From positions 79,414-143,413 of the forward strand of contig CALVAD010000003.1 in assembly GCA_944325495.1 (NCBI GenBank): a stretch of 64,000 nucleotides of DNA, given 5' to 3'. Shown here piece by piece: positions 1,850-64,000 of this stretch (the first letter of the stretch is position 1; every line of letters starts with the position of its first letter). The translations under genes and the position numbers were made by a program. This DNA is from an uncultured Bacteroidales bacterium. Lineage in GTDB: Bacteria; Bacteroidota; Bacteroidia; Bacteroidales; UBA932. The notes under the pieces are model-generated. The model was given only the letters and a program-made list of their open reading frames with translations. It made no database searches and was not told where the DNA came from.

Positions 1850-2072
1850 CATGCAGGTCGGGTTGCCATATTAAACCAAGGTCGTCGCATGCAGGTCAGG
1901 TTGCCATATTAAACCAAGGCCGTCGCATTCCGGCAGGTCAGCCATGTAAAGCCAACGCGTCTCATGCAGATAGAGCCGCCATATTAAGCCATGGCCGCCG
2001 CATTCCGGCAGGGTAACCATGTAAAGCCAACCCGTCTCATGCGGATAGAGCCGCCATATGAAATTGCCGTCG
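1850..2072. repeat. Array of six 35-38 bp imperfect direct repeats
   Basis: Units start at 1850, 1888, 1926, 1963, 2001 and 2038, each opening with CATGC or CATTCC and containing a GCCATAT or CCATGTAAAGCC segment. From the second unit on, two subtypes alternate (CATGCrG then CATTCCGGCAGG), giving a higher-order period of 75 bp. The array sits exactly between two type A palindromes. A minus-strand frame stays open through it because 75 is a multiple of three, but its peptide resembles nothing known. Confidence 0.8.
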
Positions 2073-7811: not shown

Positions 7812-7867
7812 GACAATGCCGGCACGGAGGTTTTCGCCGAATCAGGTGCCTCCGTGCCGGCATTGTC
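7812..7867. terminator. Bidirectional hairpin between convergent ketosynthase and ligase genes
   Basis: Arms 7812-7830 and 7849-7867 are perfect 19-bp inverted copies with an 18-nt loop, located between the stops of two convergent genes. The loop starts TTTTCGCCGAATC and resembles the loops of the palindromes at 28884 and 42285. Confidence 0.7.
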
Positions 7868-16634: not shown

Positions 16635-16752
16635 TTTCGTCATGCGGGCGGGCTGCGCTGAAAGGCTTGCCGTCCGCGGCAGTGAGCGGACGATGCGCAG
16701 CATCGATGAAGCGTAGCGGAACCTTTCAGCGCAGCCCGCCCGCATGACGAAA
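16635..16752 (+). repeat. Structured palindromic element, type B copy 1
   Basis: Perfect 31-bp inverted arms (16635-16665 and 16722-16752) enclose a 56-nt interior. The interior starts CTTGCCGTCCGCGGCAGTGA, forms a first hairpin GTCCGC/GCGGAC, then a second small hairpin CGATGC/GCATCG, and ends GATGAAGCGTAGCGGAA. Four other copies with the same interior plan lie at 23309, 40707, 40994 and 47602, while the arms are unrelated between copies. This is the shortest interior. Confidence 0.85.
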
Positions 16753-23308: not shown

Positions 23309-23437
23309 AATGCGGAGCCGGCAGCCTCCGGGGAGGTTCCGCTACGCTCCATCAATGCTCTCTCCGCTTCGCTACGGAGCATTGCCCGCTCACTGCCGCG
23401 GGCGGCAAGCCTCCCCGGAGGCTGCCGGCTCCGCATT
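23309..23437 (-). repeat. Structured palindromic element, type B copy 2
   Basis: Perfect 28-bp arms (23309-23336 and 23410-23437) around a 73-nt interior that, on the minus strand, begins CTTGCCGCCCGCGGCAGTGA and ends GATGGAGCGTAGCGGAA. Hairpin one is GCCCGC/GCGGGC, a compensatory change relative to GTCCGC/GCGGAC at 16635. Hairpin two is CAATGCTC/GAGCATTG. It lies between the convergent ClC and GH106 genes. Confidence 0.85.
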
Positions 23438-28883: not shown

Positions 28884-28953
28884 CCGGAGGCAGTGTGCGC
28901 CGGAGGAGGCTTTTCCCTGTTTCATCGCCTCCTCCGGCGCACACTGCCTCCGG
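28884..28953. terminator. Perfect 27-bp palindrome between convergent genes (short-loop element)
   Basis: Arms 28884-28910 and 28927-28953 are perfect inverted copies with a 16-nt loop. It separates the convergent cyclotransferase and ABC genes and should terminate both. The loop read on the minus strand, GATGAAACAGGGAAAA, resembles the 3' end of the type B interior (GATGAAGCGTAGCGGAA at 16635). Confidence 0.75.
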
Positions 28954-40706: not shown

Positions 40707-40832
40707 TAGAGGTGACGGCTTCCTCACAGGAGGTTCCGCTGCGCTTCATTGATATTTCTTCGCTACGCTGCGAAATATCACCCGCTCACGGCCGCGGGCG
40801 GCCAGCCTCCTGTGAGGAAGCCGCCACCTCTA
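40707..40832 (-). repeat. Structured palindromic element, type B copy 3
   Basis: 27-bp arms (40707-40733 and 40806-40832) with one mismatch around a 72-nt interior. Read on the minus strand it starts CTGGCCGCCCGCGGCCGTGA, has hairpin one GCCCGC/GCGGGT and hairpin two TGATATTTC/GAAATATCA (different in sequence from other copies but still paired), and ends AATGAAGCGCAGCGGAA. It lies 27 bp after hmuT. Confidence 0.85.
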
Positions 40833-40929
40833 TGGCGAAAGATACTCTTATATGAGTTTTTGATACCTTGGTTTGGGATTGACAGAATATATAATAATGT
40901 GAGAATTAATGACAGTAGCCTTTGCGTCG

Positions 40930-40937
40930 TATGTTTG
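40930..40937 (+). promoter_or_regulatory. Internal -7 box ahead of hmuU-hmuV
   Basis: TATGTTTG matches TAnnTTTG. It lies in the AT-rich 161-bp segment between two oppositely oriented type B elements, within the interrupted haem operon, and points toward hmuU. Confidence 0.45.
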
Positions 40938-40993
40938 TATCAAGAAAATGATTCAAGATGCAAAAAGTTTATGGAAGTTGACGCGGGCAGGAG

Positions 40994-41127
40994 CCGTTCA
41001 TGGACTGTTTGCCTCTGGAGAGGCTGGCCGCCCGCGGCTGTGAGCGGGCGATGCTCATAGTGAAACGGAGAGCATCGATGGAGCGCGAAGCGCGGAACCT
41101 CTCAGGAGGCAAACAGTCTATGAACGG
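40994..41127 (+). repeat. Structured palindromic element, type B copy 4
   Basis: 30-bp arms (40994-41023 and 41098-41127) with a few mismatches, around a 74-nt interior starting CTGGCCGCCCGCGGCTGTGA, with hairpin one GCCCGC/GCGGGC and hairpin two CGATGCTC/GAGCATCG, ending in a GATGGAGCGCGAAGCGCGGAA-like tail. Its orientation is opposite to the copy at 40707. It lies 29 bp before hmuU. Confidence 0.83.
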
Positions 41128-42196: not shown

Positions 42197-42284
42197 CTTT
42201 GGTATAATTGACATTTTGGGTTGGTGCCAATGACAAAAGAGGCCGGTATATGGAGGTCGATGTTGAAAGTTGTGCGCCGGCTGT

Positions 42285-42344
42285 CGCAGCCTGCCCCTCG
42301 GGAGGCGGGAGATTCGGGAACAGCCTCCCGAGGGGCAGGCTGCG
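42285..42344. repeat. Perfect 22-bp palindrome with short loop, after the haem operon
   Basis: Arms 42285-42306 and 42323-42344 are perfect inverted copies. The 16-nt loop GGGAGATTCGGGAACA shares the GGGAA core with the minus-strand loop at 28884 and resembles the tail of type B interiors. A likely terminator of hmuV transcription. Confidence 0.7.
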
Positions 42345-42377
42345 GCCGCCGGCTCCCCAGGACTTGCGCAAACCACT

Positions 42378-42413
42378 GCTCTCAAGTCGCCACAAAAACA
42401 CTGACTTAAGAGC
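42378..42413. repeat. Short palindrome
   Basis: GCTCTCAAGTC at 42378-42388 pairs with GACTTAAGAGC at 42403-42413 with one mismatch. No T-run follows. Confidence 0.45.
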
Positions 42414-42460
42414 ATTATTCTTTCAGAACAGATTCTCAATCAACCTATTAAACTCGCACC

Positions 42461-42500
42461 ATGCTCCCAAATCGGCTTCCTTGGTCCGATCTGGGAGCAT
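42461..42500. repeat. Perfect 15-bp palindrome
   Basis: ATGCTCCCAAATCGG at 42461-42475 and its exact inverse at 42486-42500 enclose a 10-nt loop. This is the third palindrome within about 220 bp after the haem operon, in a stretch without convincing genes. Confidence 0.6.
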
Positions 42501-42669
42501 TAGGTTTCAGAAAAACGGCTTCCTATAGCTCTACAACGGCATTTTCCCAAAACATATTGCTCACAGATAATTTCATCCACCCTGACATGACGGCTCCGCT
42601 CGTCCGGCTGACCTGGCAGCATAGCCGATGGAGACGCTTGGAGTGAATGTGGAGACTGCTTTCAGGAAC

Positions 42670-47601: not shown

Positions 47602-47737
47602 GGCCTTTGCGGAAGGTGCCGCCTCTCGGGAGGCTTGCCGTCCGCGGCAGTGAGCGGACGATGTCCGGAGCGGACGCGGAGAGGCATCGATGGAGCGCAG
47701 CGGAACCTCCCGAGAGGCGGCACCTTCCGCAAAGGCC
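47602..47737 (+). repeat. Structured palindromic element, type B copy 5
   Basis: Perfect 32-bp arms (47602-47633 and 47706-47737) around a 72-nt interior starting CTTGCCGTCCGCGGCAGTGA, with hairpin one GTCCGC/GCGGAC, hairpin two based on CGATG/CATCG, and the end GATGGAGCGCAGCGGAA. It lies between the divergent PH-domain and ogt genes, so here it is not a simple 3'-end terminator. Confidence 0.87.
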
Positions 47738-54304: not shown

Positions 54305-54820
54305 CCTATGTACTACGAGATGACCAGAGACTTGTCGCGTCGGGAACCACCTGAAAATTGCGGCGCCAATCCTTGCATTTATGTGTCGTTTCTACCTTTC
54401 AGCCGTTCCTGACCACATTTGCGGGTCCGCAGAAAAAGGTCATCTGGACATTTTGAGTGATGAAATGAGTTGAAAAGATCAAAGATGGACAGTTTGGGTG
54501 ATGGAAAGGCAAAAGTCAAGCACGGAGCGAGCTTCTCCGACGGGCTCGGCGCAGTGCCTGGCCTTTAGCCGCCGGAGGTCGTATATTCCGGCGGCGGTGC
54601 CGGTGTCAACAATGTCTTCTGATGTATTCATCCAGCAAACGGAAAAGGAGAATGAGATGCTCTTTGACACCATCGCTGAACATGGACGGGGCGGGCTGTG
54701 GCTCCGCTTTTTTGTGCCCGCGTTTTGACATCTTTTTACATCTCCGTCAAAGAAACTTGCCAACTTTCTTGCCAACTTTTCGGGTGCTCCAAAGCCGTCC
54801 AAACCCGTAACTCCCTGAAC
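54305..54820. other. Gene-free stretch, possible element remnant
   Basis: No convincing gene. At 54747-54780 there are two copies of TTGCCAACTTT separated by a few bases, followed by a run of short C-rich phrases leading into a terminator hairpin. I have the impression of the 3' margin of an integrated element, but no integrase or matching end is visible in the window. Confidence 0.25.
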
Positions 54821-63252: not shown

Positions 63253-63717
63253 ATGTTAAAGACTAACGCCGCCAGATTGTTGGATGCAGCAGGAATCCGC
63301 TATGAACTGACAGCCTATGAATATTCCGAGGATGACTTGTCCGCGGGGAAGGTGGCCGCGTCGCTCGGCGAGGACATCGACCGCGTGTTCAAGACGCTGG
63401 TGCTCCGCGGCGACCGCAGCGGGGTGTTCGTGTGCGTGATTCCCGGCGATTTCGAGGTCGACCTCAAAGTCGCCGCCTCGATTTCCGGAAACAAGAGCTG
63501 CGCGATGGTCCATGTCCGGGAGCTTCCCGGCCTTACCGGATATATCCGCGGCGGCTGCTCTCCGATCGGCATGAAGAAGCTGTATCCGACCTATATCCAC
63601 GAGTCGGCGCTGCTCTACGACTATATCTATGTAAGCGCCGGAGTCCGGGGCCTTCAGATGAAAATCGCCCCGTCGGACCTGTTCAGCTACACCGGCGCCG
63701 AAGTCTATCCTATCTGA
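63253..63717 (+). CDS. ybaK: Cys-tRNA(Pro) deacylase YbaK
   Basis: 154 residues of the YbaK/EbsC family, which removes cysteine wrongly attached to tRNA-Pro. Signatures are SLGEDIDRVFKTLVLRGDRSGVFVCVIPGDFEVDLKVAA, with the active-site lysine in VFKTL, and GYIRGGCSPIGMKKLYPTYIHESA with the GxxSPxG motif. The length is normal. It is transcribed divergently from TrpB2. Confidence 0.92.
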   Translation: MLKTNAARLLDAAGIRYELTAYEYSEDDLSAGKVAASLGEDIDRVFKTLVLRGDRSGVFVCVIPGDFEVDLKVAASISGNKSCAMVHVRELPGLTGYIRGGCSPIGMKKLYPTYIHESALLYDYIYVSAGVRGLQMKIAPSDLFSYTGAEVYPI

Positions 63718-63720
63718 CAG

Positions 63721-64000
63721 CGCAGGCTGAGTCAACGCGAAGGTTGTAATTAGGACAAGCCCCACGAATGAGGGACGGCAGCCGTATGGAAGCCGCATCA
63801 GCGGCCCGGCGAAGCGTCAGCGAGATTTGCTTCTGCAAATCGAAGCAGCGCAGCCGACAGCCGTAGCGACCGCGCAGGCTGAGTCAACGCGAAGCGTTGT
63901 AATAAGGACAAGCTCCACGAAAAAGGGACGGCAGCCGTATGGAAGCCGCATCAGCGGCCCGGCGAAGCGTCAGCGAGATTTGCTTCTGCAAATCGAAGCA
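63721..64000. repeat. Tandem repeat of about 152 bp, running off the window
   Basis: The phrase CGCAGGCTGAGTCAACGCGA occurs at 63721 and again at 63873, and the sequence between repeats almost exactly to the window end (second unit 128 nt visible). The unit contains the self-pairing GATTTGCTTCTGCAAATC. Indels of one base give a period of 152-153. No reading frame or known element is recognised. It begins 3 bp after the ybaK stop. Confidence 0.85.

Follow-up and report, generated by a model that had tools for sequence, protein, structure and literature searches.

What kind of element can recur five times within one stretch of bacterial DNA, with arms that differ from copy to copy around a shared interior? 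The question is raised by a region of 64 kb, analysed here over its whole length (the window), which is contained in a metagenome-assembled genome (MAG) of Candidatus Cryptobacteroides (2.02 Mb, 61 contigs), called the source genome below. On balance, the five sites appear to be copies of a single non-autonomous, mobile-type intergenic repeat of approximately 120-140 bp, which would work as a folded strand, most likely RNA.

Layout and predicted fold of the repeat

The five copies reported by an earlier sequence-only reading of the window are all present where it placed them (Table 1). Each is a near-perfect inverted repeat, with arms of 29-32 nt that are 90-100% complementary, enclosing an interior that starts with CTxGCC and finishes with GGAA. 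The arms of c5 (32 nt), c1 (31 nt) and c2 (29 nt) are 100% complementary, those of c3 (31 nt) 94% and those of c4 (30 nt) 90%, while the interiors measure 72, 56, 73, 72 and 74 nt in c5, c1, c2, c3 and c4, respectively. An arm finder returned eight inverted repeats of at least 20 nt in the window, five of them being c1-c5; when the window was block-shuffled five times, the mean was 0.

Table 1. Positions in the window of the five copies (c1-c5) and of the stems predicted within c5
Feature	Position	Strand	Description
c1	16635-16752	+	neighbours tandem; the upstream gene's terminator-like hairpin on one side, on the other a gene that reads like rpoD
c2	23309-23437	-	neighbours convergent
c3	40707-40832	-	neighbours tandem; strand opposite to the genes
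c4	40994-41127	+	neighbours tandem; genes on the same strand
c5	47602-47737	+	left arm 47602-47633, interior 47634-47705, right arm 47706-47737; neighbours divergent
c5, stem S1	47636-47639 with 47646-47649	+	crossing stem, xGCC/GGCn
c5, stem S2	47641-47645 with 47654-47658	+	core of the earlier hairpin 1; loop GTGA at 47650-47653
c5, hairpin H3	47659-47663 with 47685-47689	+	the earlier hairpin 2
c5, mini-hairpin H4	47695-47701	+	GC(GCA)GC, then GGAA

The interior had been described as two hairpins with coupled base changes, and both hairpins are confirmed. Hairpin 1 is GTCCGC/GCGGAC in c1 and c5 and GCCCGC/GCGGGC in c2 and c4, with GCCCGC/GCGGGT and a terminal G-U in c3; the coupled changes of hairpin 2 in c2, c3 and c4 are also as described. 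What that description missed is the crossing stem S1, the GC(GNA)GC mini-hairpin and the long, copy-specific arms. Comparison of the copies shows the plan predicted for the whole element, in which a closing stem, P1, of any sequence so long as it is paired, surrounds the conserved interior. In the 5' module, S1 (xGCC/GGCn, up to 7 bp in other copies) and S2 (yCCGC/GCGGr) are shown by covariation to cross, and the 3' part of the interior comprises the variable hairpin H3, which differs between copies in both length and sequence, followed by the GC(GNA)GC mini-hairpin H4 and the conserved GGAA.

The evidence for this plan comes from two alignments, A2 (44 copies) and A3 (40 copies from five genera), which were built by sequence, with the structure then drawn from them. 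In A2, P1, S1, S2, H3 and H4 are paired in 95.1% of cells, versus a mean of 81.6% in shuffled alignments and at most 46.1% in slid ones, where the kinship of rows inflates cell counts and the slid controls keep that relatedness. Both sides change at 20 of the 27 pairs, giving 173 double-change cells (shuffled mean 46.2); further pair types are not above the shuffles (42 versus 38.1, the 42 being reached in 37 of 500 shuffles). The x-n pair of S1 is standard in all 44 rows (U-A 21, G-C 11, A-U 9, G-U 3) and in 39 of 40 rows of the wider set. S2 is paired in 99.5% of cells in A2 and 100% in A3, and the H3 helix in A2 changes on both sides at 6 of 6 pairs, with 92.4% of cells paired. In A3, S1 with a 3-bp extension and S2 together reach 97.5% of cells paired versus 86.9% in shuffles and at most 50.9% in slid controls, with 50 double-change cells versus 11.7; further pair types equal the shuffles (12 versus 11.3). 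Three of the five S2 pairs in A3 change on both sides (for instance, CCCGC/GCGGG, CCCGT/ACGGG, CCCAT/ATGGG and CCCTC/GAGGG), and the innermost of the three extension pairs of S1 is unpaired in 8 of 40 rows. The covariation test that the sequence-only reading had proposed thus gives values far above both kinds of control.

Because S1 crosses S2, the 5' module would be either an H-type pseudoknot or a two-state switch. The pseudoknot is feasible in copies with a short S1 (4 bp, connecting loop of 4 nt). In copies with a long S1 (7 bp, loop of 3 nt), the full S1 and the full S2 would be geometrically incompatible, so that a switch between two hairpins is possible. The energies of the isolated stems, calculated for six copies, prefer S2 in the short-S1 copies and S1 in the long-S1 ones. 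Among 79 copies, H4 is GC(GNA)GC in 63 (N being C in 34, T in 15, A in 10 and G in 4); of the others, 15 have an extended GCGC hairpin and one is unclear. The interior has a GAUGA..GAA resemblance to the core of hammerhead ribozymes; a hammerhead-like core was nevertheless rejected, since the CUGAUGA box and the conserved A-U closing pair of those ribozymes are absent.

Copy number, distribution and genomic sites

The repeat is abundant in the source genome, where the pattern GCCGYCCGCGGCNGTGAGCGG gives 44 matches with up to three mismatches and its backwards version gives 0. The two sampled genomes closest to the source genome, Candidatus Cryptobacteroides merdipullorum (G201) and Ca. C. avistercoris (G175), have 29 and 43 matches, respectively, with one backwards match each. 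Forty places were examined in the source genome, 37 with paired arms and 3 without. In GTDB release 220, a near-identical pattern was found in 74 stretches, of which the two Cryptobacteroides species account for 53; arms accompany 0 of the 21 stretches outside both species (best score 8), so that core matches without arms are regarded as chance outside this clade. Within both species, an arm score of at least 12 was reached by 36 of 57 matches, the other 21 including contig ends and imperfect arms. Some match with up to three mismatches occurs in 58 of 101 genomes of the genus, mostly in small numbers similar to the backwards control, and one of these genomes (G004; 9 matches versus 0 backwards) carries a sister form.

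The family continues in diverged sequences detected by a structure model. The covariance model R1, built from 44 copies, matches 187 of 400 genomes drawn from the genus (E<=1e-4), 91 of 398 from the family (E<=1e-5), where 6 of 25 genera are represented, and 3 of 393 from the order, namely the source genome, one genome of the same family and one of another family (G821). The genomes that supplied model sequences match by construction, and up to ten candidates were scored per genome, so that copy numbers from R1 are lower bounds. Further copies, for which the sequence-only reading had suggested such a search of related genomes, are thus present. The diverged copies that were readable follow the same plan; a fixed core expression missed 7 of 27 diverged loci in one set and missed or misread 3 of 17 in another, and some of the missed loci were read by eye. 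Carriage by phages or plasmids was rejected, as a search with one 86-nt copy found nothing in a phage collection or in a plasmid collection.

The sites are intergenic. A codon-scored gene caller found two called neighbours for 33 copies of the source genome (4 at contig edges and 3 without arms were left out), and none of the 33 overlaps a called gene by more than 20 nt. Thirteen lie between convergent genes, 16 between tandem genes and 4 between divergent genes; the tandem pairs have 8 copies on the same strand as the genes and 8 on the opposite one. A cruder caller, applied to 79 copies, placed 17 between divergent genes, 14 between convergent genes, 22 and 20 between tandem genes (same and opposite strand, respectively) and 6 at edges; because it accepted spurious open reading frames, it gave way to the codon-scored one for the source genome. 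The window holds three plus-strand and two minus-strand copies within 64 kb, and the reading as a replication-strand element was set aside on that ground.

Comparison with the relatives shows that many sites are common to related species and that units have amplified with their arms since. The flanks of 27 of 35 element loci of the source genome can be aligned with a locus of G201 or G175 that carries the element, and the details come from 17 inspected locus pairs. One pair (L023/L123) has the same arms with the interior turned round between them; at two others (L017/L159 and L003/L136), the interior has the opposite orientation in the same gap with far diverged arms, and these may be separate insertions. 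Other sites are empty: c2 and the following gene are absent at the G175 site, c5 and a neighbouring gene are absent in both relatives, and G201 has no element at the sites of L025, L026 and L027, with a different repeat-like sequence in the gap of L027. Target-site duplications could not be defined at any of these element-free sites, which are highly diverged in the relatives, L025, L026 and L027 in G201 included.

These sites bear on the view that the element is a cis-acting module of the adjoining genes, such as a terminator, an mRNA 3'-end stabiliser or a regulatory RNA. It would suit the sharing of sites between species and the copies between convergent genes, 10 of those 13 being within 30 nt of a stop codon. 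However, the even split of orientation between tandem genes and the four divergent sites speak against it, as do the interior oppositely oriented between the same arms at L023/L123 and the separate terminator-like hairpin that precedes c1. An intrinsic terminator, in particular, is contradicted by the tandem orientation and by the five window copies, none of which has a T-run directly 3' of its hairpin. A cis-acting module is therefore quite improbable, and among the three guesses of the sequence-only reading it is the non-autonomous mobile element that fits best, while the mRNA 3'-end module is disfavoured by the same orientation counts.

Several side observations concern these and other repeats. 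The copies c3 and c4 (window 40707-41127) stand head to head with approximately 160 bp between them, and the corresponding site of G201 has a single fused element, a product of recombination between interiors or of assembly collapse. Four simple long hairpins (window 28884-28953, 42276-42353, 2083-2158 and 7812-7867), with arms of 19-31 bp and loops of about 16-20 nt, are without the conserved interior; two of the loops start with TTTTCC or TTTTCG after GGAGG(C), and the G175 site that corresponds to 28884 has no such hairpin. Next to the hairpin at 2083 are imperfect tandem repeats with a length of about 37/75 bp (window 1850-2063). A second conserved repeat, GACCGCATCAGCGGTGC..AATCGAACCAACGAAGCYGCCAACCGG..GGAGGTTGAGC, is nested in or joined to the element at L006, L075, L114, L122, L156, L162 and L163, and its relatives occur apart from the element at L012, L027, L168 and window 63716-64000, the last being a 153-bp tandem repeat of 1.9 copies that contains the second repeat and extends to the window end. 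Additionally, window 42377-42612 and 54486-54640 have about 20 and 4 partial-match places in G201 and are probably two more dispersed repeats.

Arms, spread and the folding strand

The arms of the source genome have a median length of 28 bp and 29 mismatches in 1014 positions; their sequence differs from copy to copy while complementarity is kept. The G+C content of arms is 66%, versus 43-45% in the flanks, and the part of the arm adjoining the interior has a consensus of approximately GCCTCCGGAGAGG, which fades by position 26 (across 79 copies, information is at most 0.15 bits at every left position from 26 outward). The high G+C content and the shared, fading consensus indicate that the arms descend from a common arm and not from local DNA, which rules out the copying of arms from flanking DNA on insertion. 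Three source copies (L008, L020 and L028) have arms 82-96% alike. Most diverged copies have arms of their own, and two arm types recur across genomes, one ending in CTCCGGGACC (L293, L345, L351, L359 and L361) and the other associated with IS1182. One orthologue, L123 (G201:C22:9645), has arms of 69 bp with one mismatch, those of its counterpart L023 being 31 bp; one of its flanks resembles an inverted copy of the other, and an assembly artefact is possible.

In 14 pairs of orthologous copies, the arms show 16 double Watson-Crick changes, 7 of transition type and 9 of transversion type, together with one-sided changes that make or mend a mismatch; a 15th pair (L014/L127), excluded as misregistered, contributes none of the 16. 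The transversion share suggests that templated correction from arm to arm may act besides selection and share the credit for the paired changes.

The unit spreads together with its arms. G175 has 15 copies with one common left arm, the matching right arm being present in 10 and the other five being nested, cut or at contig ends; the homology of one of them (L147) to the others is limited to 148 bp, comprising the hairpin and a short margin, and others share longer flanks. Since units amplify with their arms, an insertion of the interior into existing hairpins is unneeded as an explanation. Closely similar arms of the AGTTGTCGGAAGGCTCTGACAGAG type occur in seven genomes (G344, G257, G290, G377, G112, G348 and G247), and 12 of the 14 such copies listed adjoin flanks that read as the end of an IS1182-type transposase gene or as the right end of that element; in 3 of these 12 the interior is turned round. 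The protein pieces match NCBIfam IS1182 with E values of 3e-4 (a 56-aa C-terminal piece) and 1.4e-12 (an N-terminal piece), below the curated cut-off because they are fragments, and Pfam gives DUF772 above its cut-off and DDE_Tnp_1_6 below it. These flanks indicate that at least one lineage spread as cargo. The IS1182-type remnants carry one subfamily; no autonomous partner of the source-genome copies and no transposase acting in trans were identified.

Which strand folds can be judged from the mismatches in the arms. Copies occur in both orientations, and a G·T becomes an A·C when the opposite strand is read; a palindrome without strand-specific selection should therefore show both equally. 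Among 79 copies chosen for their arms (score >=10) and read in the best arm register, 68 of 2123 arm positions are mismatched, with 34 G·T, 8 A·C and 26 others. A separate set of 35 elements from other genomes has 48 mismatches (24 G·T, 7 A·C and 17 others), an excess with p ~0.003 if they are independent; this set omits L303 and L313, which are already in the first one, and their inclusion gives 37 elements with 26 and 8. A count from a fixed anchor (G·T 67, A·C 34) takes in copies misregistered at the anchor, and the best-register count is preferred. The excess identifies the CTxGCC..GGAA strand as the one that is predicted to fold, as RNA or as single-stranded DNA. G·T pairs are tolerated in RNA and, less so, in DNA, where they are the best-tolerated mismatch; the folded strand is for this reason called RNA only with a "probably". 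The selection on a folded single strand proposed by the sequence-only reading is thus backed by covariation with controls, the one-strand G-T bias and the conservation of loops.

The folded strand may also be a hairpin of single-stranded DNA on which a recombinase or transposase acts, in the manner of IS200/IS605, REP/RAYT or integron attC systems, with the interior as the structural landmark of the enzyme. This is conceivable, though unlikely. The GC(GNA)GC loops match the very stable DNA mini-hairpin d(GCGNAGC), and both the two orientations beside genes and the joint amplification of units and arms suit a DNA element. However, no Y1 transposase was found in the three richest genomes (G000, G201 and G175; E<=0.001, MAGs 82-93% complete), in a search whose control gives matches in 5 of 14 genomes; both genomes with the sister form (G004 and G011) do have Y1 matches. 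In integron attC sites, the base of the variable stem is marked by a conserved core-site pair; here the outer arm ends are unconserved, with neither such a pair nor a GTAG foot. Moreover, the G-T pairs fit RNA at least equally well.

A palindrome without present function is a further alternative to a repeat kept as folded RNA. In this view the repeat is old, and template switching and gene conversion maintain the pairing of its arms, which would explain the transversion-type share of double arm changes and the inversion of the interior, both at L023/L123 and in the IS1182-flanked copies. It would also explain the x-n pair: by inspection, A-T prevails in G175 and T-A in G201, as though interiors had been homogenised genome by genome. 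Arm correction cannot, however, explain why the interior stems S1 and S2 covary in copies from five genera, and it leaves the one-strand G-T excess unexplained, as well as the retention of H4 as a hairpin in 78 of 79 copies. This explanation is already weakened and appears improbable.

Known families and the meaning of the repeat

The statement of the sequence-only reading that no named family fits holds for Rfam 15 and for the open-licence literature searched, in which nothing on repeats or hairpins of Cryptobacteroides was found. At gathering thresholds, Rfam 15 recognises in the window only the SRP RNA and one tRNA. For 18 loci (copies or a related long form) at E<=3, only miRNA-precursor models match at the elements; these matches, MIR8622 (E 0.007, 34.5 of 197 bits) and mir-612 (E 0.03, 30.9 of 100 bits), are far below gathering and are taken as chance long hairpins. 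The features of a miniature inverted-repeat element (MITE) are present in size (below about 200 bp), lack of a protein and many dispersed copies; terminal inverted repeats are shared only within recent subfamilies and not across the family.

ERIC elements are intergenic and imperfectly palindromic, and their copies share sequence, whereas the arms of the present repeat are copy-specific. The ERIC/IRU/RU-1 repeat, as described in one review, is a dispersed element of 127 bp with a long stem-loop RNA and reported effects on mRNA stability (PMC2229807), and it resembles the present repeat in dispersal, size and stem-loop. It differs in having TA ends and target duplications, of which none were found here, and that review mentions neither a pseudoknot nor compensatory changes. 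The Correia/NEMIS MITEs of Neisseria, shorter than 200 bp and with inverted ends of 24 bp, have a proposed RNase III cleavage of their RNA stem-loop (PMC2229807); size, inverted repeats and a stem-loop, probably of RNA in the present repeat, are common features, but those elements have terminal inverted repeats, TA ends and target-site duplications, while the outer arm ends are unshared in the source genome. The REP/RAYT repeats (GTAG and CGTC) are dispersed palindromes with G-T pairs in their stems, for which RNA action was suggested (PMC3733652). They have stems of 5-13 bp and GTAG/CGTC tags, in contrast to stems of about 28 bp and no tag here, and membership was rejected on these grounds and because no Y1 transposase was found in three host genomes. 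The STAXI motif (RF01728) is a bacterial pseudoknot for which RNA and single-stranded DNA were likewise weighed (PMC2864571); it forms repeated pseudoknots near DNA-handling genes of Enterobacteriales, while the present repeat has no Rfam match. By analogy, the present repeat may resemble ERIC and NEMIS in its working, and it is a shown member of neither, nor of REP/RAYT or any Rfam family.

The simplest account is that of a MITE- or ERIC-like element, old in this bacterial family and kept as a folded strand, probably RNA. Its RNA would arise when transcription of a neighbouring gene runs through the element. The unit may have spread as passive cargo (of the IS1182 type in one lineage) or by means of an enzyme acting in trans; the arms of each copy would later drift by paired changes, while selection would keep the interior and interiors would be homogenised within each genome. 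By comparison with the processing of ERIC- and NEMIS-type repeat RNA, the conserved interior, folded as RNA, might be bound by a protein and influence the ends or the stability of the transcript that contains it. Against this account, the outer arm ends are unconserved, although a classical transposase of terminal inverted repeats would need conserved ones, and a cis effect is hard to reconcile with interiors that point in opposite directions at one shared site. It is rather unlikely that the mobile element is recognised by the fold of its middle and not by its ends. The pseudoknotted or two-state RNA would in that case be the handle by which the element is copied or by which a host protein takes hold of it, with long arms free to form a different duplex at each locus.

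Crossing, covarying stems in a repeat element are unusual, and so are arms free of sequence constraint. The result is a family of structured repeats without an Rfam entry; so far, 6 of the 25 genera sampled from one Bacteroidales family have it, as does a single genome from another family. In the richest genomes, the core with its crossing stems hardly varies among dozens of copies whose surrounding stems differ, so that each genome constitutes a natural mutational scan of the parts that the fold requires. If a protein binds the core, this would represent a new system for the recognition of RNA or single-stranded DNA; if no protein does, the repeat would provide a clean test of the extent to which selection on structure can be mimicked by templated correction between arms.
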